The notes below the pieces were generated by a model. The model worked only from the letters and a program-made list of their open reading frames with translations. It was not told where the DNA came from and made no database searches. Below, piece after piece: positions 26,755 through 36,256 of a stretch of 64,000 nt of DNA; the first letter of the stretch is position 1, and the number at the start of each line of letters is the position of its first letter. Source of the DNA: an uncultured Acidobacteriia bacterium (GTDB taxonomy: Bacteria > Acidobacteriota > Terriglobia > Bryobacterales > Bryobacteraceae). Where the stretch lies: the NCBI GenBank assembly GCA_903875575.1, contig CAIQWJ010000007.1, positions 1 to 64,000 on the forward strand, written 5' to 3'. Made by a program: the position numbers and the translations under genes.

Positions 26755-27123
26755 TCAGTTTTCTGTCAAATCGACAGTTTCCTGGCACTCGACCAGCGCG
26801 TTGGTGAAACTCGCGGCTGCGCGAACCCTGGCAAGAGATGCCGCAAGATTCGCCCGGCCGGCACGTGCCGCTATGAGCACATTCTGGAGCCGGTCCCGAT
26901 ACCTGGCAATTTCCTCCGGGGCCATTCCCCCCATACCGGATACGCCGGCAAGCTGGATCTCCCCGGCAAGCACACTGGCCACGCTCCAGTCCCCCTGACG
27001 AATGCATTTTTCGAGCGCCAGTATCGTTTCCCGCTGCTGCGCCCCGCCTTTGTTATCCGGTAGTTGCGGAGGCGCTGGGGTTGTTATTGTTACCGGTAAT
27101 GGAGTAGAACAGTCCGTTGACAT
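26755..27123 (-). CDS. Small helical protein downstream of fliD, FliT/FlgN-like
   Basis: The ATG at 27123 gives 122 residues. It overlaps the fliD 3' end by 71 bp in another frame. The first 25 residues are Pro/Thr-rich. The rest is helical (ETILALEKCIRQGDWSVASVLAGEIQ, RYRDRLQNVLIAARAGRANLAASLARVRAAASF). Size, helicity and position behind fliD resemble FliT or FlgN chaperones, which hold FliD or hook-junction proteins before export. Sequence identity is not clear to me. FliT usually lies beside fliD and fliS, and fliS is elsewhere here. The large overlap leaves the exact start uncertain. Confidence 0.6.
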   Translation of the reverse strand: MSTDCSTPLPVTITTPAPPQLPDNKGGAQQRETILALEKCIRQGDWSVASVLAGEIQLAGVSGMGGMAPEEIARYRDRLQNVLIAARAGRANLAASLARVRAAASFTNALVECQETVDLTEN

Positions 27124-28441
27124 AAGAAACCTGACTTTCAAGCGCCGCGATGGCGGCATCCGCCTTCACGATCTGCGCCGTAATATTCGATTGAAGCTGC
27201 GAAATCCGCGTCTGCTGGTCCGCAATCTTGGTCTTCTGGGCCGTGATTTCGTTCGCCACCGTCGCAAGCTCCGTCTTCACAGTCCCCGTGGTTGAATCTT
27301 CCACGCTGTTCAACAGGTTCGTCGCACTCTGCAGAAAGCCACCAGTTGTCGCGCCGCCCAGCACCGATGAAAACGCCGCGAAGTTCCGGTTCGCTGCGGT
27401 TGTAAGTGCCGCCGTATCCACCGAGAGGTTTCCCGTCTGATCCACCGTGATCCCGTAGGCGGCAAGCGACGTGTCCGGCGTCCCGTTGCTGAAACCCGAA
27501 ATCTGCTGCAGCAGACTCGTCAGCGTGTTGACGATGCTGTCCCCCTGCAGCGCGCCGCCCGCCGTGCCATGATATTGAGCGAGCAGGCTCACCGCCGCGT
27601 TGTAAGACCCCGCAAACGAGCTCAGGGCCGAAGCCACTGCCGACGGATCGTTCGCCACCGTAACCGTCGTCGCCTGACCAGAAGCGCTCTGCCCCCGCAA
27701 ATCCACCGTCAGTCCCGGGGCCAGCGTGACAGTTCGCGAATCGCTGCTGAGCTCGGTGCTGAGGCCCGCCACTTTGTAGGTGGCCGGCGAACCCGCGTTG
27801 GTCTCCTGTATCAGGCTGGTGCCAGAGCTATCCGTCAGATCGATCGATAAGGAACCCAGCTTCGTCGCCGTCAGCGACAACCGGTAATCCGGCGACGCGG
27901 TCGACCCGACGTTGATCACACTCGCCTGCACCTGGCCTGCCGCCTGCAGATTGATCGCACTGGCGAGATCGTTCAGCGATGACGACGCAGGCGTAATGGT
28001 GGTGGGCACCCCGTCCACATTAAGCGTCAAAGATGTCGAGGAACTGATCCCCTGCGCTGTCGGATCCGTCACCGCCACCACACCTGTATTGCTCAACGCC
28101 GTGGAACTCGCACCCAGGCTGTCCACTTCGATCGAATAAGTTCCAGGCACTGCACCACTGCCGAGCGTCGCCCCTGCGATCGACGCGTCGGAGACCGACG
28201 AAGTCAGCGTACCCGACGTTAACGCTGCCTGTATCGTCGAAATCGACGACTGCAGGGTGGAAAAGGCTGCATCCAGTCCCTGAAGCCCGCTTTTCTCGCC
28301 GTTGAAGGTGTTCAGCGTCACATTCAGCGAGCCCAGCGGCAGGGACGCAATGCCCACCGCCCGCGTGATGACCTGCTGCAGGCTGGCGGCGAACTGACTT
28401 TGCCCGCTGAACGTTGACGCGGCGCTGGAGGATGTGGACAT
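27053..28441 (-). CDS. fliD: Flagellar filament cap protein FliD (HAP2)
   Basis: The 462-residue protein has the FliD N-terminal region (about 1-115) with long Ser/Thr-rich beta domains. VASALSSFAGSYNAAVSLL belongs to the core, and the C-terminal coiled coil (EITAQKTKIADQQTRISQLQSNI...ALESQVSYVNGLFYSI) is typical. FliD caps the filament tip and helps flagellin to fold in place. It follows fliC after a strong hairpin. Length is normal. Confidence 0.95.
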   Translation of the reverse strand: MSTSSSAASTFSGQSQFAASLQQVITRAVGIASLPLGSLNVTLNTFNGEKSGLQGLDAAFSTLQSSISTIQAALTSGTLTSSVSDASIAGATLGSGAVPGTYSIEVDSLGASSTALSNTGVVAVTDPTAQGISSSTSLTLNVDGVPTTITPASSSLNDLASAINLQAAGQVQASVINVGSTASPDYRLSLTATKLGSLSIDLTDSSGTSLIQETNAGSPATYKVAGLSTELSSDSRTVTLAPGLTVDLRGQSASGQATTVTVANDPSAVASALSSFAGSYNAAVSLLAQYHGTAGGALQGDSIVNTLTSLLQQISGFSNGTPDTSLAAYGITVDQTGNLSVDTAALTTAANRNFAAFSSVLGGATTGGFLQSATNLLNSVEDSTTGTVKTELATVANEITAQKTKIADQQTRISQLQSNITAQIVKADAAIAALESQVSYVNGLFYSITGNNNNPSASATTG

Positions 28442-28498: not shown

Positions 28499-29974
28499 TT
28501 AGAGGTTCTTCAGCAATGACAGCACCGATTGAGGGGCTGAATTTGCCTGCGAAAGTGCTGCCAGCGACGTCTGCTGCAGCACCTGCGCCTTGGTCAGGTT
28601 GGCTGCGGCCGCCGCCACATCCGCATCGCGAATGGAGGATTCCGCCGCCGAAACGTTGGTGATCTGTGACTGCGCCAGATTGGTTGCATATTGAAGTTTG
28701 TTCTCGCCCGCGCCAACCTGGCCCTGTACCAGTCCCAGATTTCCAATCGCCGTCGTCAAAGCCGTCAGCGCCGCCAGCGCATTCCCCGTGGATGACGCGC
28801 TCGCCGAAGCTGCCGTAACCGTCTGCGCTCCGGTCGCGGCAAACAGGCCATGCGCATTGTTCGTCGTTTCGTTGATACTGAACGCGTTTGTGCTCTGCAG
28901 CGTGATCCCGGTGCCAGCCGTGTCCTTGACCGCGTAAATGCCACTGCCCGTCAGCGCCGTATTCAGCGCGGCCAGCGTGTCTGCCTGATTGTCTCCGGTC
29001 GTGCTCGTCAGATTGACGTTGTACGAACCACCGGCGTTCTGCACCGTGAATGCTTCGGTACCCGCCGTGATTGCGGGTATCTGGGTGTTAATGGAATAGT
29101 TGGAGCTGTTCACCGCCGTGCCGGTTCCCGTTGTCGTTACCCCGCCCGAGGCCCCGGTTGTCGTCGCCGTGAACGCAGTCGAGCCGCCAAACTGCAGGGT
29201 GCCCGCACTGCCGATGGACGCCGTAATACCGTAAGCCTGCAACTGGCTGTTGAGACTGCTGACCACCTGAGTGCCGCTCAGCCCCGCACTGCCTCCCGTC
29301 GCCGTTACCGTCACGTCCTGATTACCCGTGCCTGTGTTGACATGGAACGTAAAGGACTGGCTGGCGCTGGTCAGAAACGTAGCGGCCGAGTTATCCAGCC
29401 GCACTGAGTTGCCACTGATCCCCGTACCTCCGCCCGCAACGCTCGTCGTGCCAATTCCAAGTGCCGTAGCGTCCACCGCAGAGTTAGCCCCTGCCAGGTT
29501 GACAGAGATTTCCGAGTTCGCCTGGTTGCTGCCGCCCCCAGTAAACACGGTCAGGTTCGTGTTGTTCGTTCCGCCCGTATTCAGCCCGATATTTGCGGCC
29601 TGGCGATTGATTTCCGTCAGCAGCCCCTGGTATTCGCTGTTCACCGTCGCGCGATTGCCCTGAAACGTCTGCGATGCCGATTCCGAGGCCAGCGTCTGCA
29701 GGCGCCCCAGAATCTGTGAAATATTGCTGAGACCGCCATCCGCAATCTGCAGCGTGCTCACGCCGTCGGATGCATTTTGTACGCCGGCTGTCAACTGGGT
29801 GATCTCGCCCGCGTACTGATTTGCCACTGCCAGGCCAGCGGGATCGTCCGCCGAGGAATTGATCTTGTAGCCGGAAGATAATTGCTGAATCGCCGTACTC
29901 TGGAATTTCTGGTTCTGGCTGATGTAGTATTGCGCATTCAGCGAAGCAGCGTTGGTTTGAATGGATATCGACAT
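28499..29974 (-). CDS. fliC: Flagellin
   Basis: The 491-residue protein has the conserved N-terminal D0/D1 domain (MSISIQTNAASLNAQYYISQNQ..., LSSGYKINSSADDPAGLAVANQ). The C-terminal D1/D0 domain reads ESSIRDADVAAAAANLTKAQVLQQ...SVLSLLKNL. The central region, about residues 150-410, is Gly/Thr/Ser-rich and variable. It is the filament subunit. It is the only flagellin in the window. It is probably transcribed from a sigma28 site at 30093-30119 and controlled after transcription by CsrA/FliW. Confidence 0.97.
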   Translation of the reverse strand: MSISIQTNAASLNAQYYISQNQKFQSTAIQQLSSGYKINSSADDPAGLAVANQYAGEITQLTAGVQNASDGVSTLQIADGGLSNISQILGRLQTLASESASQTFQGNRATVNSEYQGLLTEINRQAANIGLNTGGTNNTNLTVFTGGGSNQANSEISVNLAGANSAVDATALGIGTTSVAGGGTGISGNSVRLDNSAATFLTSASQSFTFHVNTGTGNQDVTVTATGGSAGLSGTQVVSSLNSQLQAYGITASIGSAGTLQFGGSTAFTATTTGASGGVTTTGTGTAVNSSNYSINTQIPAITAGTEAFTVQNAGGSYNVNLTSTTGDNQADTLAALNTALTGSGIYAVKDTAGTGITLQSTNAFSINETTNNAHGLFAATGAQTVTAASASASSTGNALAALTALTTAIGNLGLVQGQVGAGENKLQYATNLAQSQITNVSAAESSIRDADVAAAAANLTKAQVLQQTSLAALSQANSAPQSVLSLLKNL

Positions 29975-30088: not shown

Positions 30089-30442
30089 TTACATATCGTC
30101 CCCTTTTGGTTTTGTTTGACCAGTATCGGAACGCTCACCTCCGCCTCGGTCACCGGACCACGCAGACACCGGAATACCGCCCACCGGTGTTGCGGAACGG
30201 TGCGGATCCGCGTGCAGCAGACCCAGCAACTCTCCCACGACATCCGCGCCTCGTTCCGCGATCAGGTCGGATGCCAGGACGTTTTCACGCGCTACCGCCA
30301 GCGTCTCCTTCCGGGTGACCGCCACATGTCCCGGTGCCCGTACGCCCAGCTTGACGCGGCTCCGTGAAATCTCGATCACCTCGATCTCCACCTCGCCACC
30401 TACCAGGATTGCTTCCCCCAAACGCCGCCGCAGGATCAACAT
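30089..30442 (-). CDS. csrA: Carbon storage regulator CsrA with C-terminal extension
   Basis: The start MLILRRRLGEAILVGGEVEIEVIEI at ATG 30442 is the CsrA N-terminus. GHVAVTRKETLAVARENV keeps the RNA-binding Arg. It has 117 residues, while most CsrA proteins have 60-75. The tail after about residue 65 is Gly/Asp-rich and probably disordered. CsrA binds GGA motifs and blocks translation, typically of flagellin where FliW is present. The start overlaps the fliW stop by 7 bp. The tail DNA doubles as the fliC promoter, which may explain why it is retained. Confidence 0.93.
   Translation of the reverse strand: MLILRRRLGEAILVGGEVEIEVIEISRSRVKLGVRAPGHVAVTRKETLAVARENVLASDLIAERGADVVGELLGLLHADPHRSATPVGGIPVSAWSGDRGGGERSDTGQTKPKGDDM
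30093..30119 (-). promoter_or_regulatory. Sigma28 (FliA) promoter of fliC
   Basis: The minus strand reads TCAAACAA-N11-GACGATAT, close to TAAAGTTT-N11-GCCGATAA with exact spacing. It lies inside the last codons of csrA, so the -10 box spans the end of that gene. The predicted transcript has a leader of about 110 nt. Confidence 0.75.
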
Positions 30443-30915
30443 ACAGCCTCCCAGCCTCCCTGCTGACTGAGCCGCCACGACCCCACCGTAGGCGCAACCA
30501 CCTGAATCCCCCGGCCGTTATGCAGGTTAATCACGACCGGGGCATCGAGATTGGTTTGTACCGTCCTGCCGGATGGCATCAGCAGCGCCAGGCAAAGAAC
30601 ATCGGCCCCAAGAGCCGGATCCACAGGCGTCTCTGTCAGGTACCCTTCGAGCTCCAGCGCCGATACGTCGTCCTCGGAAAGACGAAGCCGGAAATCCGGC
30701 TGTACCGTCAGCACCGGCAGAGCAAGGAAGCAGACTTCGCCATTGTCCGCACTTTGCAGATAGATCAGCGGCCTCTGAGAGGGGATCTCAATCGGCACCA
30801 TGCGATGGTGATGCTCAAAACCGGGCAATCCGGCGGGAAAGTGCAATTCGCAACTGCTCTCCCACTGGAGCGGCCCCAGCCAGGGCGACACTACTCTCAG
30901 GCTTCGTTCAGTCAT
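30436..30915 (-). CDS. fliW: Flagellar assembly factor FliW
   Basis: The 159-residue protein has the FliW core: ELHFPAGLPGFE near residue 25, then FLALPVLTVQPDFRLRLSEDD and LDAPVVINLHNGRGIQVV. In Bacillus FliW binds CsrA and is displaced by flagellin, so that free CsrA stops flagellin synthesis when secretion stalls. ATG 30915 is preferred over an upstream GTG at 30924 because AAAGGTG sits just before it. It overlaps the HEAT-repeat gene and csrA, implying one transcript. Confidence 0.93.
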   Translation of the reverse strand: MTERSLRVVSPWLGPLQWESSCELHFPAGLPGFEHHHRMVPIEIPSQRPLIYLQSADNGEVCFLALPVLTVQPDFRLRLSEDDVSALELEGYLTETPVDPALGADVLCLALLMPSGRTVQTNLDAPVVINLHNGRGIQVVAPTVGSWRLSQQGGWEAVC

Positions 30916-32839
30916 TTCGCGCACCTTTCAACAGACTCGTCTTGCGGGAGAACCGGACTGGCTTCGCAGTGGCGTTCCGGATTGCCACGGCCGTCGCGGT
31001 CTTCTTTGTACGCAACACGTAGCGGGATTCCAGCGCAGCCACGAACTGAGGCCACGCCAGCGCACATTGGTTCTCAGTACGGACAATGCCGCCCAGGCGG
31101 CGGTCTTCCCGATCTGCGCCGCCGAACCCAGCCCGCAACGCTGTCTCTCCCGGCTCTTCCGCAGACGCGATCGCACCCGCGACCGGCTTTTCTTCGTCAA
31201 TCTCCCAGAACCTTCGTGCCGCGCCTCCAGACTTCCCGGCGGGCCGCGCCGGGCCCGTATGTCTGCCTTCCGCCGCAGGCTTCTCATCGGAACCGACCGA
31301 TGGTGCTTCCACTTCCGGGGAGGCACTTTCCTCCTCCGTGAAACGCCAGCAATGAAACCTGACACCCTTCTCGCGGCATAGCTCCCGAATTGCTTCCGGC
31401 TCAGGCGCGGAACGGGCATCGTCCAGGATGAGGATCAGATGCCTTTCTGTGGCATTCTGTTCCAGACCGAGGGTGTTTCTGACCGCTTCGGTAGCGTCGA
31501 AGACGCAAGGCGTCCCGCCTTCAAGCAATTCCTCCAGCTTCGCGTGATCCGATTCGAACTGCGGACGGGCCCCGCGATCGTATCGTTCCATCGCGGTAGC
31601 GGCCGATCGAAAAGAAGAGTCCCCTGTCACGGTTCGCTCATAAGCAGTCATAGCCCACCGCTGCCCGCCTGACCGCACCGACAGGCTCTTCCGGAATGCA
31701 TCAGTCAGGGCTTCGCTGCCTGCGGGATATACAATTCCCAACGCCACCGCCTGGGCGCGTATGACAGGCTCCACCGAGTATTCGAGACTGAACCCAACTC
31801 CCGTCCAGACCAGGAAATCGATGGGCCGGATCCCGCGAAGGAATTCACCACCCGGACCCACCACGCGAACCCAGATCTCCGATTCGGCTTTCTCGCCCTC
31901 CGCTTCAGTCCCCGGTACCGACACAAACACCACGTCGGCGTCGTATCTCTGGCGGTCAAATGCCTCCGTATCCGGCCGGGGAAAGGGGTCGAGCCGCGAC
32001 AAGCTGGCAATCGCCGCTTTCCGAAGCTCGGGAATCTCACTCCTCGACGCACCCAGCAACAACTGTCCGAACCGGGCATCGCGCGTCTGACCCATGATCC
32101 ACGCAGCCGTTATACTCTTCCTCGAATCCGGCGATTCCAGCATCCCCGCTAGTGTCGTCAGCGAACGGATGTCGCCCTCCGTATAAAGCGCCAGCCAGGC
32201 ATTCCCCGCCACGCGATTGCTCGCATCCCGTGCGGCTGCTTCCAGCAGCGACCTGGCCCGTGACTTATCCACACCCCAGAGCATTTCCACGATATTGGCC
32301 CGTACTCTCGGGTCGGCGGCACAGAAGCGCTCGAGTCCCGCGGGATCCTCAAAGCGATAACGCGCAATCAATCCTGCGCATCTGGTCCGCACCTGCGTAT
32401 CCCCAAACTGGTGGATCCGGGCGATAGAGCGCCAGTTCCCCAGATGCTCCACATTCTCCTGCGCAATATCCAGCACGCGGAGAATGTTCGTTGGATTCTG
32501 GGCCAGAGCCGGCCGCAACAGAACCGCTGTCAGCATGGAGTTGATGAAGTTCCCGTCCATCTTCAGCATGTGGCGGGTCAGACAAAGAGCCCGCTCTCTC
32601 GTCGTAAGCGCCGGATTGGCAATTGCCGGGATCAGCACGTCGTTGTGCAGCAGCAGAATCATTGCGTAACGGAAGCCCCGGTCCTTCGTGTCGATTTCTC
32701 CGGCATCCGCCAGCGCTTTGAGAAACGCCGCACTGTCGGCATGGAGCGAGTCGCGCAGTTCGCGGCCGGCGCGAACCGGGTTCCGCCCAAAATCGCGCAG
32801 CGGCTCCAGTGGCGAACCAGACGCGCTATGCTGTCTCAT
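30908..32839 (-). CDS. HEAT-repeat protein of the flagellar operon, function unknown
   Basis: The 643-residue protein is of unknown function. Residues about 15-290 form repeated helical pairs resembling HEAT/armadillo repeats (RVRANIVEMLWGVDKSRARSLLEAAARDASNRVAGNAWLAL and neighbours). Residues about 305-510 resemble a VWA-like alpha/beta domain, but no MIDAS metal motif is seen. The last 130 residues are charged and low in complexity. No signal peptide or TM helix is evident, so it is probably cytoplasmic. ATG 32839 overlaps the fliM stop by 14 bp, and its end overlaps fliW, so it is embedded in fliM-x-fliW-csrA. A C-ring or flagellin-control role is inferred from position only. Confidence 0.7.
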   Translation of the reverse strand: MRQHSASGSPLEPLRDFGRNPVRAGRELRDSLHADSAAFLKALADAGEIDTKDRGFRYAMILLLHNDVLIPAIANPALTTRERALCLTRHMLKMDGNFINSMLTAVLLRPALAQNPTNILRVLDIAQENVEHLGNWRSIARIHQFGDTQVRTRCAGLIARYRFEDPAGLERFCAADPRVRANIVEMLWGVDKSRARSLLEAAARDASNRVAGNAWLALYTEGDIRSLTTLAGMLESPDSRKSITAAWIMGQTRDARFGQLLLGASRSEIPELRKAAIASLSRLDPFPRPDTEAFDRQRYDADVVFVSVPGTEAEGEKAESEIWVRVVGPGGEFLRGIRPIDFLVWTGVGFSLEYSVEPVIRAQAVALGIVYPAGSEALTDAFRKSLSVRSGGQRWAMTAYERTVTGDSSFRSAATAMERYDRGARPQFESDHAKLEELLEGGTPCVFDATEAVRNTLGLEQNATERHLILILDDARSAPEPEAIRELCREKGVRFHCWRFTEEESASPEVEAPSVGSDEKPAAEGRHTGPARPAGKSGGAARRFWEIDEEKPVAGAIASAEEPGETALRAGFGGADREDRRLGGIVRTENQCALAWPQFVAALESRYVLRTKKTATAVAIRNATAKPVRFSRKTSLLKGARND

Positions 32840-33800
32840 ACCATCGCGTCCTCGACTTCTCCAGGACCTGAAAGGCCACCCGGTTACCCCTGTTAACAAT
32901 TTCTCCCCGGTATTTCGGCATACCGCTCAGCAACAGATCGAGCGCCCGCGTCACCGGAAACTCCAACCCCACCACATCGCCTTCCTCGAGGTCGATAAGG
33001 TCCCTCAGCAGAAGCTTCGGCCCGCTCAGAATCGCCTCTGACTTCAGTTCGGCGGTCTGGATCAGTTTCATCACGCGAACCTGTTCTACGTCCGTAGGCG
33101 CAGCCTTGCGCATCAGCCATTGCTGGTCGAACTTCTGCCGCATCATCTTGATAATGATCGACGGCATCGCGATGTTCATCATGCCGATCGCATCGCCCAC
33201 CCGGATTTCGATCGCTACCGCCACTACTGCTTCCGTGGGGGCTAAAATCTGCAGAAACTGCGGCTCAGTCTCGATGCGTTCAATCGCGAAATTGATCGGC
33301 GTCACAAATTTCCATGCTTCGTGCAGATCCCGCAAAACCATCTCGAAGAAACCGCCCAGCAGAACCTGCTCAATTTCCGTCACCTCCCGCTGGGATGTGA
33401 ACTGCAGCTTCCCGTCGCCGCCGAGCAGGATCTCCAGCACTGGAAACACCAGAGAGGAATTCAGCTCAAGGATGGCGTTGCCGTCATAAGGCTTCAGACC
33501 AAGCGACGCGAGGCACGTCGGCGAAGGCAGACATTCGAGAAACTCCGAGTAGGAAAGCTGCTCCACGCTGACCAGATTCACAATTACGTAAGACCTTAAA
33601 TAGGCCGAGAGGCTGGACGCCAGCGCGCGCACGAAATTGTCGTGCAGCTGATGAATCGCACGCAACTGCGACTTTGAAATGCGATCGGGGCGGCGGAAGT
33701 CGAAAGCGGCCGCCCGCTTTCCGGCGGAACGCTCCGGGCGCACGTCCCGCACGTTCTGGAATACATCGTCGATTTCCTGCTGACTGAGTTGGCTGGCCAT
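32826..33800 (-). CDS. fliM: Flagellar motor switch protein FliM
   Basis: The 324-residue protein opens MASQLSQQEIDDVFQ, the CheY-binding type of N-terminal peptide. The FliM middle domain includes LRAIHQLHDNFVRALASSLSAYLR. The SpoA domain lies at about 245-320 (LIDLEEGDVVGLEFPV, LLLSGMPKYRGEI). FliM forms the C-ring wall and receives CheY-P. It follows flgL after 11 bp, an unusual partner for a switch gene. Confidence 0.96.
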   Translation of the reverse strand: MASQLSQQEIDDVFQNVRDVRPERSAGKRAAAFDFRRPDRISKSQLRAIHQLHDNFVRALASSLSAYLRSYVIVNLVSVEQLSYSEFLECLPSPTCLASLGLKPYDGNAILELNSSLVFPVLEILLGGDGKLQFTSQREVTEIEQVLLGGFFEMVLRDLHEAWKFVTPINFAIERIETEPQFLQILAPTEAVVAVAIEIRVGDAIGMMNIAMPSIIIKMMRQKFDQQWLMRKAAPTDVEQVRVMKLIQTAELKSEAILSGPKLLLRDLIDLEEGDVVGLEFPVTRALDLLLSGMPKYRGEIVNRGNRVAFQVLEKSRTRWYETA

Positions 33801-33811
33801 TATGTTTCCGA

Positions 33812-34732
33812 TCAGGCGAGATAATCGAACAGACTCTTCTGCGGTGTCGCCGCCTGAGCGGAGATGGCCGCCTGCTGACTGGTGGTTTCCTGGGTCAGAT
33901 CACTCGCCGCCTGCGCGACATTGGTGTCCCGGATTCCGGAAATACTCGTCTGAATCGTGGTGATCTGACTCGCGACATTCGCCTGTTCGCTCGCCAGTCG
34001 CTGTCCCGAAGTTCCATAATGAACCTGTTGCTGGCTGAGCCACGACGCCACAGCGGCAAGAGCAGTCACGCCGGTTGCGATCCCGGTCTGATCGTTCGCC
34101 TGCAAAGCAGCCTGAAGATTCTGCAGCGCGGCGAAGGCGTTCACCGCCGTCGGTACCCCCGCGCTGGACGCGTCAAAGATCGTCCCGGCGGAGAGCGGCT
34201 GATAAACCGTGGAACCTGCCGGATTCACAAACTGACGAGTGGACGGCGCTGTCGTCAGAGCGTCAACACCCGTCACGCTCGCCGCGTTGTACTGGTAGGG
34301 TGCCGTCTGATCCTGGTCCCCTCCAAATATGTACCGGTTCCCGACCTGCGTGTTGGCGAGCGACACGATCTCTTGCTGGATCGACTGGATCTGAACCCCC
34401 AGATTCTGTCTCTGACTCGCCGTCGCAGTCGAAGTCGCTCCCTGCGTCGCCAGCGAACGGGCGCTTTGTACCAGGCTAATTGCGGAACTGATCGCATTGT
34501 CCGCGGCCGAGGCCTCCGCCTGAACGTTGCCCAGGTTCGTCTGGTAGGCCTGCGCAACCGCCAGCGTGGAGCCAAGATCCACCAGATCCCTGGTAGCCGC
34601 CGGGTTGTCCGCCGCGCTCGACACCCGGTAACCGGACGACAACTGCGTCTGGGTCTGTATCTCCCTGCTTTGCAGATTGGCCAGACCATTGAGGAACCAG
34701 TCGGCACCGATCTTCGCGGAATTCACGGTCAT
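33812..34732 (-). CDS. flgL: Hook-filament junction protein FlgL (HAP3)
   Basis: The 306-residue flagellin-like protein has N-terminal IQTQTQLSSGYRVSSAADNPAATRDLV and IFGGDQDQTAPYQYN, typical of FlgL. The C-terminal helix is ISGIRDTNVAQAASDLTQETTSQQAAI. It joins hook-associated FlgK to the filament. It lies downstream of flgK, with the 27-bp palindromic repeats in the gap. Confidence 0.95.
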   Translation of the reverse strand: MTVNSAKIGADWFLNGLANLQSREIQTQTQLSSGYRVSSAADNPAATRDLVDLGSTLAVAQAYQTNLGNVQAEASAADNAISSAISLVQSARSLATQGATSTATASQRQNLGVQIQSIQQEIVSLANTQVGNRYIFGGDQDQTAPYQYNAASVTGVDALTTAPSTRQFVNPAGSTVYQPLSAGTIFDASSAGVPTAVNAFAALQNLQAALQANDQTGIATGVTALAAVASWLSQQQVHYGTSGQRLASEQANVASQITTIQTSISGIRDTNVAQAASDLTQETTSQQAAISAQAATPQKSLFDYLA

Positions 34733-34773: not shown

Positions 34774-34870
34774 GGATGCGATACGCATCGCTTTCCCAAC
34801 GGATGCGTTACGCATCGCTTTCCCAACGGATGCGTTACGCATCGCTTTCCCAACGGATGCGTTACGCATC
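34774..34870. repeat. Four 27-bp tandem palindromic repeats overlapping the flgK end
   Basis: Units GGATGCGNTACGCATC start at 34774, 34801, 34828 and 34855, separated by the identical 11-mer GCTTTCCCAAC. Each unit is an inverted repeat (GATGCG/CGCATC). The first has ATA and the other three TTA at the centre. The flgK stop codon lies inside the last unit. They fill most of the gap before flgL. Confidence 0.95.
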
Positions 34871-36256
34871 CTGCGCCCCCACCAGATTCACCGCATCCAG
34901 CACAAGATTGTCCAGAACACTCACCAGCTTGGCCGAAGCCTGCCACGCCCGCTGATATGCCGTGATGTCCACGGCCTCCTGATTGAGGGACACGCCCTCT
35001 ATCGCCGTCTGACTGGCCGTCGCCGATGTCAGCGTTGACTGATCCGCTGTTGACTGCGAATTTGCGTCGGAAAGTTTCTGCCCCACGCTTTGTGCGATCA
35101 GGGAGAAGTAGTCCCGCGGTGCCAAACCCTGAATCTGATTCGCCGGACTATTCGAGCCCGCCAGTCCGGCCAGCTGATTGGCAACTCCATTCGACTGCGC
35201 CGAAGCTCCCGTCGTCGCCACCGCAAGCTGATCCGGCGTCACCGTGGCATCCACCGAAAGGGTGCGCGCAACATTCGAGGGGTTCGCACTATCGTATGTA
35301 AAGATTGACACTCCAGCCGCCCCGGTCGCCGTCACACCCGATGTCAACAGGCCGTTGACCGTCGAAGCAAAACCCTGTGCCAGGGTATTGAGGCTGCCTG
35401 TCTGGCCGTTGCCACCGAGAATCGGCGTGATGGTGTTGTTAAAAATATCGACAATACCGCCCAGCGTCCCGGACAGTGACAACGGAGTCACGCCACCGCC
35501 TGAAGAAGTAATCTGGCTCCCCGGGGCCGCCGACAAATCGGCATGAATGTTAAAAGACTGATCCCCAAGCACCAGCGGTAGGGAGCCCCCCGCCAGTACG
35601 TTGAGCGTTCCGTCGGCGTTCTTGTTCACCGTGATACCCACCAGAGACGAAAGTTGCGTCAGGGCAGAGCGCTGCGAAGCATCCACACCTGGATCCAATT
35701 GCGTTTGGCCGCGAACCTGCACGTTGTACTGGGCGATCTGACCCGCCAAACCGTTAATCTGCGAAACAGCGCTTTGCGCGCCGCCTGCCAGACTCGCGCT
35801 CTGGCTGTCCAGACTCTGCGCCACCGAATGGAACGCTGCCGCAACATTCTGCGCGGCGGCAAGAGCCGTCGCCGCTACTGAGGAGTCGCCTGGTGAGACA
35901 CTGAGGTTCGCAAACGCCGTGCTGAACTGCTGAAATGCCGCAAGTATTCCGCCCGACCCTGTAATATCGAACTGCTGATTGATCAGATTGAGCTGCTGTG
36001 CCTGTGTCTGGCTGTCGGAGGCTTGCGAGGTTGCAGCCTGAACCAGCGCGTCGGCCTGTGCGTTTCCGGTTGACGCAATCACAACCGTGTCCGCTCCTCC
36101 AGCCGGACCAAAACCCACCGGCTGTATTGTTGCCCTGACAGCTGCGTACCCAGGCGTGGAAGAGTTCGATACATTGTTTTGATCGGCGCCCAAAGCCCGG
36201 CTGAACGCGTCCAATGCCGTAGACGCACCCTGCAGCGATGAGAATAGGTTGGTCAT
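34862..36256 (-). CDS. flgK: Hook-associated protein FlgK (HAP1)
   Basis: The 464-residue protein has the rod/hook N-motif (ALGADQNNVSNSSTPGYAAVRATI). A QINGLAGQIAQYNVQVR helix follows, and the C-terminal coiled region is GVSLNQEAVDITAYQRAWQASAKLVSVLDNLV. FlgK is the first hook-filament junction protein. The gene follows flgM by 17 bp. Its last codons (QDA-stop) are written by the palindromic repeat array, so repeat growth has reached the reading frame. Confidence 0.95.
   Translation of the reverse strand: MTNLFSSLQGASTALDAFSRALGADQNNVSNSSTPGYAAVRATIQPVGFGPAGGADTVVIASTGNAQADALVQAATSQASDSQTQAQQLNLINQQFDITGSGGILAAFQQFSTAFANLSVSPGDSSVAATALAAAQNVAAAFHSVAQSLDSQSASLAGGAQSAVSQINGLAGQIAQYNVQVRGQTQLDPGVDASQRSALTQLSSLVGITVNKNADGTLNVLAGGSLPLVLGDQSFNIHADLSAAPGSQITSSGGGVTPLSLSGTLGGIVDIFNNTITPILGGNGQTGSLNTLAQGFASTVNGLLTSGVTATGAAGVSIFTYDSANPSNVARTLSVDATVTPDQLAVATTGASAQSNGVANQLAGLAGSNSPANQIQGLAPRDYFSLIAQSVGQKLSDANSQSTADQSTLTSATASQTAIEGVSLNQEAVDITAYQRAWQASAKLVSVLDNLVLDAVNLVGAQDA

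Follow-up and report, generated by a model that had tools for sequence, protein, structure and literature searches.

A HEAT-VWA protein encoded between fliM and fliW in an acidobacterial flagellar locus

The flagellar run and its additional gene

We analysed a 64,000-nucleotide stretch of DNA (hereafter, the window) from an uncultured Acidobacteriia bacterium (order Bryobacterales, family Bryobacteraceae; assembly GCA_903875575.1, contig CAIQWJ010000007.1). Within a large flagellar region, its minus strand carries the gene order flgK-flgL-fliM-X-fliW-csrA-fliC-fliD, where X encodes a protein combining HEAT repeats with a VWA-like domain. Few gene sets have been charted as thoroughly as flagellar operons, and the triad FliW-CsrA-flagellin has been studied well. 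The neighbours of X were recognised by their Pfam profiles: flgK (34862..36256; PF22638), a gene named flgL by its position, the product of which Pfam places with the flagellin type (33812..34732; PF00669 and PF00700), fliM (32826..33800; PF02154), fliW (30436..30924; PF02623), csrA (30089..30478; PF02599 and its frame, with the ATG at 30442 as the likely start), the flagellin gene fliC (28499..29974; PF00669 and PF00700) and fliD (27053..28441; PF07195 and PF02465), all of them on the minus strand.

Several features of these neighbours were recorded along the way. CsrA is usually a short protein; counted from its likely ATG, that of the window has 117 amino acids, with a C-terminus longer than usual, as also found in several relatives. 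One genome of the same genus (G007, locus L133) possesses two flagellin genes, each ~61% identical to fliC of the window, that flank fliD. Upstream of flgK, several members of the genus, as well as G040 and G041 from a second genus, carry a distant match to a FliA-like sigma factor (24–34% identity to FliA; loci L052, L133, L135, L138, L139, L140, L142, L143 and L144).

The X gene occupies positions 30908..32839 of the minus strand, as judged from the list of open reading frames, its translation, the junctions and the retention of the frame in relatives. The frame is open from a TTG (30908–32899), and the ATG at 32839 gives a protein of 643 residues. The TTG would add 20 residues, and the aligned copies from the genus begin at this ATG or close to it. 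The plus strand over the same region contains stop codons. The start of X overlaps the end of fliM by 14 nt (32826..32839) and its end overlaps the ATG start of fliW, at 30915, by 8 nt (30908..30915; both on the minus strand); with the GTG start listed for fliW, at 30924, the latter overlap becomes 17 nt. By eye, a candidate Shine-Dalgarno sequence (AAAGG) is found just 5' of the fliW ATG.

Domain architecture of X

The first half of X forms a HEAT solenoid (residues 12–285; 31985..32806, minus strand). It matches HEAT_2 (PF13646) with an E value of 5.3e-11 and 43.1 bits against a Pfam cut-off of 27.7, and HEAT repeats were found by Pfam in all 34 sequences of the family alignment, X among them. 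The AlphaFold2 model of X, based on an alignment of 35 sequences and with a mean pLDDT of 80, predicts helices of the solenoid over residues 12–280 (pLDDT 76–98 in 10-residue blocks), a second domain made of residues 302–500 and 589–622, and disorder over residues 505–584. In fold comparisons, HEAT scaffolds were the best matches of the first half, with Z-scores of 11.6–13.4; since for repeat proteins values below ~13 can reflect a common arrangement alone, the HEAT assignment rests on Pfam too. With the Pfam cut-off passed and a helical solenoid modelled, X is a HEAT-repeat protein. A separate family in the genus consists of HEAT proteins of ~350–430 amino acids that have no VWA part and whose sequences end much as X does, in LRLDGxxF/Y or a near variant (L250, L253, L255 and L256).

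The C-terminal half (residues 302–500 and 589–622; 30974..31936, minus strand) appears as a VWA-like domain with an apparently lost metal site. Its counterpart in the full-length model resembles an integrin I domain with a Z-score of 11.6, and comparisons with integrin I, vWF A3, TFIIH and other VWA domains gave values of 10.4–12.0. Modelled alone (mean pLDDT 70), this half again took up a VWA fold (Z up to 12.0), and a Foldseek search with the domain alone yielded E values down to 7.4e-5. By topology, the models have a VWA fold. Direct HMM searches of X with Pfam and NCBIfam matched no VWA model, and TIGR03436 (acidobact_VWFA), which has a curated cut-off of 81.25 bits, gave no match at E ≤ 1. 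Among the 34 members of the family alignment, two matched TIGR03436 directly (best E 1.7e-7) and one matched Pfam VWA (E 0.01). By profile-profile comparison (hhalign), the C-terminal half aligned over 231 columns with ten TIGR03436 proteins encoded in the same genome, with a probability of 97.3 and an E value, for this single comparison, of 1.6e-11; the HEAT half, used as a control, reached a probability of 0.4. The relative L181, a frame with almost no C-terminal part, was omitted from the VWA-only alignment.

The DxSxS metal motif is absent from X in the alignment: the column of the template's MIDAS Asp is occupied by Pro372, a residue shared by all eight copies from the genus. The domain has the fold and ancestry of TIGR03436, in a diverged form, but most likely lacks the metal site. 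X also shows that among the acidobacterial VWFA proteins there is a branch that lacks the metal motif and is fused to HEAT repeats. The genome of the window (G000) contains 46 TIGR03436 matches, with 39 of the rows above the cut-off, some of them pieces of one frame.

These results agree with the initial annotation, which had left the strand unstated and described a 643-residue protein that overlaps fliM and fliW (by the 14 and 8 nt given above) and combines HEAT repeats with a VWA-like domain, a plan borne out by PF13646, the match to TIGR03436 and the AlphaFold2 VWA fold. It had also stated that it knew of no standard flagellar protein with such a plan, and X indeed matched no flagellar model of Pfam or NCBIfam at E values up to 1, which led us to reject an identity with any of these proteins. 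In Pfam, X matched HEAT models and, below threshold, a phage-tail model, and nothing else; in NCBIfam it had no match at all. A phage origin was likewise rejected, the PHROGs search with X and one relative having produced one match, at E 0.25. The PADLOC search for anti-phage defence HEAT proteins returned for X one partial match to HEAT-ARM_XIII (E 6e-4, 125 of 1972 positions) and, for four relatives, likewise partial HEAT matches (best E 1.8e-8). Hydropathy indicated no membrane segment in X, the highest value over 19 residues being 1.43.

A disordered insert occupies residues 505–584 of the VWA-like domain (31088..31327, minus strand), with pLDDT below 50 in both models. Among the eight copies from the genus, an insert of such length is present only in those of G000, G005 and G013, where it can hardly be aligned except for the motif (R/K)(R/K)FWE(I/A)DE(E/D), represented in the window by FWEIDE (31193..31210, minus strand). 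Five identical columns out of six (FWE-x-DE) were not equalled in any of 400 shuffles; since the three sequences are related, this result speaks for retention and not for independent origin. A search for the coding pattern of FWE-x-DE in 19 genomes found three matches, each located in X of G000, G005 or G013, and the reversed pattern, as a control, found four. The count of three is unremarkable alone; that all three fall inside X does stand out. The N-terminal CheY-binding motif of FliM includes EID, a likeness to FWEIDE too short to be used.

Distribution and evolutionary history

The sample of the genus comprised 19 genomes, including that of the window, with both fliM and fliW in 17 of them and neither in two (G008 and G022). 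X is found between the two genes in eight of the 17 (G000, G005, G013 and G016–G020), and in the remaining nine fliM and fliW are adjacent without it. Not all of these genomes are complete and free of contamination (10% in G013), and presence and absence were read from single contigs carrying both genes. X is also located close to flagellar genes in members of two other genera. In the second genus, it lies ~2.2 kb downstream of fliM in both G040 (93% complete), where MotA is in between and fliW, csrA and flagellin follow, and G041 (71% complete), in which no FliW match was detected. In the third genus (G033, 78% complete), X lies 5' of flagellin; fliW-csrA-fliD are on that contig too, and fliM is on a different one.

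Among the flagellar loci of other genera, X was absent from the 30 best-scoring FliW loci and the 30 best-scoring FliM loci (~1.5 kb on each side, or up to the contig end). As a positive check, fliW was recognised in all 30 of the FliW loci and csrA in 28; fliM and fliW never occurred together within ~1.5 kb on each side in either set. We also considered a diverged X hidden 5' of fliW in these genomes and rejected it: the 54 frames found upstream in the 30 loci (~1.0–1.5 kb per locus, 0.1 kb in one) gave no match to profiles of the genus copies or of the wide family. X is an accessory gene and no conserved flagellar component, being present in 8 of 17 loci of its genus and in none of the 30 FliW and 30 FliM loci searched in other genera.

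At the level of the order, 167 of 257 genomes contain a match to X at E ≤ 0.001, many of the rows covering the HEAT part only. With the profile of the genus (E ≤ 1e-10), 396 genomes sampled evenly across the phylum yielded the gene of the window and two short HEAT matches in other genomes, and a first scan of the genome contigs with X alone as query gave no match. We searched the regions around 40 further relatives, hand-picked for long frames among the relatives listed and several of them ending at contig ends, for the flagellar structural proteins of the window. In 38 of the 40 there was no match, one of these 38 matching the sigma-54 activator alone; because of this, the HEAT-VWA family looks mainly non-flagellar. 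The genes around these relatives vary, those tested encoding aminopeptidase M17, aconitase, peptidase M1, CpsB/CapC and aldehyde dehydrogenase. Two HEAT-VWA relatives stand in tandem in three genomes (L041, L055 and L056). At six loci (L056, L057, L058, L062, L067 and L070), a ~800-aa protein of one family is encoded downstream of a HEAT-VWA relative and on its strand. At L056 the tandem copy and a small frame of opposite orientation lie ahead of this protein; at L058, the only one tested, it contains a peptidase M1 domain. The link with flagella drawn in the initial annotation is therefore sustained in part: X is not absent from related flagellar loci and the fliM-X-fliW synteny is kept in the eight genomes of the genus, but it is missing in nine and was not found in the 30 FliW and 30 FliM loci of other genera, and the family at large looks mainly non-flagellar. 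A link between the motor and FliW/CsrA control, which the annotation also raised, may exist.

In a quick tree of X that excluded frames of 900 aa or more, the eight copies from the genus formed one clade (SH-aLRT 100) with a long stem. When presence of X was mapped on a tree of FliM, FliW, CsrA and FlgL from the 19 genomes, five changes were needed; presence is hardly clustered, since 88 of 500 label shuffles gave values as low. The simplest reading is that X was gained once, within the genus or earlier, and was then cleanly lost several times, although X may instead have been gained repeatedly at the same site. The copies from the second and third genera stood apart from the genus clade in the free tree, with weak deep branches, and a single origin of all X genes at flagellar loci was rejected, as forcing the 11 copies into one clade gave a p-AU of 0.0225. 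A group formed by the two fliM-linked genera and one further copy of G040, leaving out that of the third genus, was not rejected, with a p-AU of 0.687 and a likelihood 8.8 above the free tree; this group was named after inspection of the tree and demonstrates no clade.

X diverges much faster than FliM: identity to the proteins of the window is 28–52% for X and 74–89% for FliM, which keeps at least 74% where X drops to 28–35%. Comparison of G016 and G020 by a counting method gave dN/dS values of 0.18 for X (0.09 for the HEAT part and 0.30 for the VWA part), 0.08 for fliW and 0 for fliM, and X is, in this genome pair, under purifying selection. This value, together with the retention of the frame in place in eight genomes, is beyond what chance would give and confirms X as a genuine gene of the flagellar run. 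The eight copies share 60 invariant residues, 50 in the HEAT part and nine in the VWA part; the solenoid is the most constrained part of the protein, and the VWA half is weakly constrained and changes faster.

Possible roles and comparison with known systems

Our preferred interpretation, which we put forward tentatively, is that X is an optional, non-enzymatic cytosolic scaffold that would have been recruited into the flagellar operon and would probably tune late assembly or flagellin control. It would derive from a HEAT-VWA family spread across the order, with the recruitment having taken place in this lineage. Because X starts within fliM and fliW starts within the end of X, synthesis of the protein would be coupled to that of FliM, FliW and CsrA. 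Its HEAT solenoid might grip a protein partner and its VWA half might hold a second one, with, in the subgroup of the window, a disordered arm bearing the FWEIDE-type motif. The partner would most likely come from the late flagellar set encoded alongside (FliW, CsrA or flagellin) or from the switch, and X would accordingly adjust the assembly of the flagellum or the supply of flagellin, a form of control that many relatives manage without. The position between fliM and fliW in 8 of 17 loci and the proximity to flagellar genes in G040, G041 and G033 argue for such a scaffold, as does the resemblance of both halves to protein-binding modules (PP2A scaffold, Z 11.6; TFIIH VWA, Z 11.4; ArnAB, Z 10.7). 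It is further favoured by the single clade of the genus copies, the dN/dS values, the Pro at the MIDAS Asp, the hydropathy profile free of membrane segments and the likelihood of the tree that joins the first two genera. We count against it the nine loci without X, the 38 of 40 regions without flagellar structural genes, the weak constraint on the VWA half, the scarcely clustered presence, the separate placement of the copies from other genera in the free tree and the rejection of the 11-copy clade.

The main rival explanation, possible though in our view rather doubtful, is that X is a hitch-hiker, a general HEAT-VWA gene that landed between fliM and fliW, is co-expressed with them without any flagellar role and can be lost at no cost. 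Its patchy presence on the locus tree would then be expected, and so would relatives with varying neighbours and mostly no flagellar structural genes around them. A passive passenger is, however, less easily reconciled with a frame that overlaps both neighbours and evolves under purifying selection, with the single clade formed by the genus copies, or with the presence of X close to flagellar genes in two other genera.

A special case of the scaffold interpretation has X acting directly on the FliW-CsrA-flagellin checkpoint, for instance by binding FliW or flagellin and altering the amount of free CsrA. The location of X directly 5' of fliW and overlapping it in the window, the order X-fliW-csrA-flagellin in G040 and the position upstream of flagellin in G033 all fit this idea. 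We nevertheless consider it unlikely, as the FliW loci of other genera combine fliW and, nearly always, csrA with no X within ~1.5 kb, and G041 has X and, at 71% completeness, no FliW match. A more elaborate version, to which we give somewhat less credence still, would make X a new type of lineage-specific flagellar regulator, a metal-free HEAT-VWA protein that would bind a component of the switch or the export apparatus together with a member of the FliW-CsrA-flagellin set and use the FWEIDE arm for docking; flagellin translation would then be tuned to motor assembly only in the species that carry X. Finally, the early suggestion of a C-ring adaptor, a structural part that binds FliM, is very improbable despite the proximity of X to fliM in eight genomes and their overlap in the window, and we rejected a core C-ring part as the main reading because 9 of 17 genus genomes have fliM without X at the locus, none was found in the 30 FliW and 30 FliM loci of other genera, X diverges faster than FliM, and in G040 and G033 X is, respectively, ~2.2 kb away with MotA in between and on another contig.

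The presence of X in eight relatives of one genus and its absence from nine offer a natural comparison: should motor or flagellin control differ between species with and without X, the difference could be traced to one gene. If X is a hitch-hiker, the matter is an ordinary one.

Judged from titles and the first part of abstracts, none of the papers listed describes a HEAT-VWA protein in a flagellar locus. X has known domains, in an unnamed combination and at an unusual place. Its helical-repeat solenoid is common to HEAT-scaffold proteins such as the alphaRep designs, the PP2A scaffold (Z 11.6 against the HEAT half) and YibA of Escherichia coli, which are nevertheless separate proteins with other partners and ~11–28% identity to X in the rows listed. 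The C-terminal half of X aligns with TIGR03436 over almost its full length, with both the strand that precedes the VWA domain and the closing region covered; X differs from that family in the Pro that replaces the MIDAS Asp, in the fused HEAT repeats and in having no strongly hydrophobic stretch. As for an extra gene within a flagellar run, Bacillus subtilis provides a parallel with yviE, a further gene right after flgL, with fliW and csrA behind it. YviE is a short protein of ~190 amino acids and in this differs from X, with its 643; the two were compared by description and by the Pfam matches of X. The flgM-flgN-flgK-flgL-yviE stretch is reported to have been tested as one operon (PMC4054197). 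A parallel in kind to the VWA half is ArnA-ArnB, described in PMC6509490 as a regulatory module of the Sulfolobus archaellum, with ArnB as the VWA protein; here, too, a protein of VWA fold is associated with an organelle of motility. The ArnAB structure chain matches the VWA half of X over 145 residues (Z 10.7, rmsd 3.0), a likeness that we take as an analogy and not as kinship, many VWA domains reaching the same Z; ArnA-ArnB is archaeal, governs an unrelated organelle and, in the abstract of that paper, is not credited with HEAT repeats.
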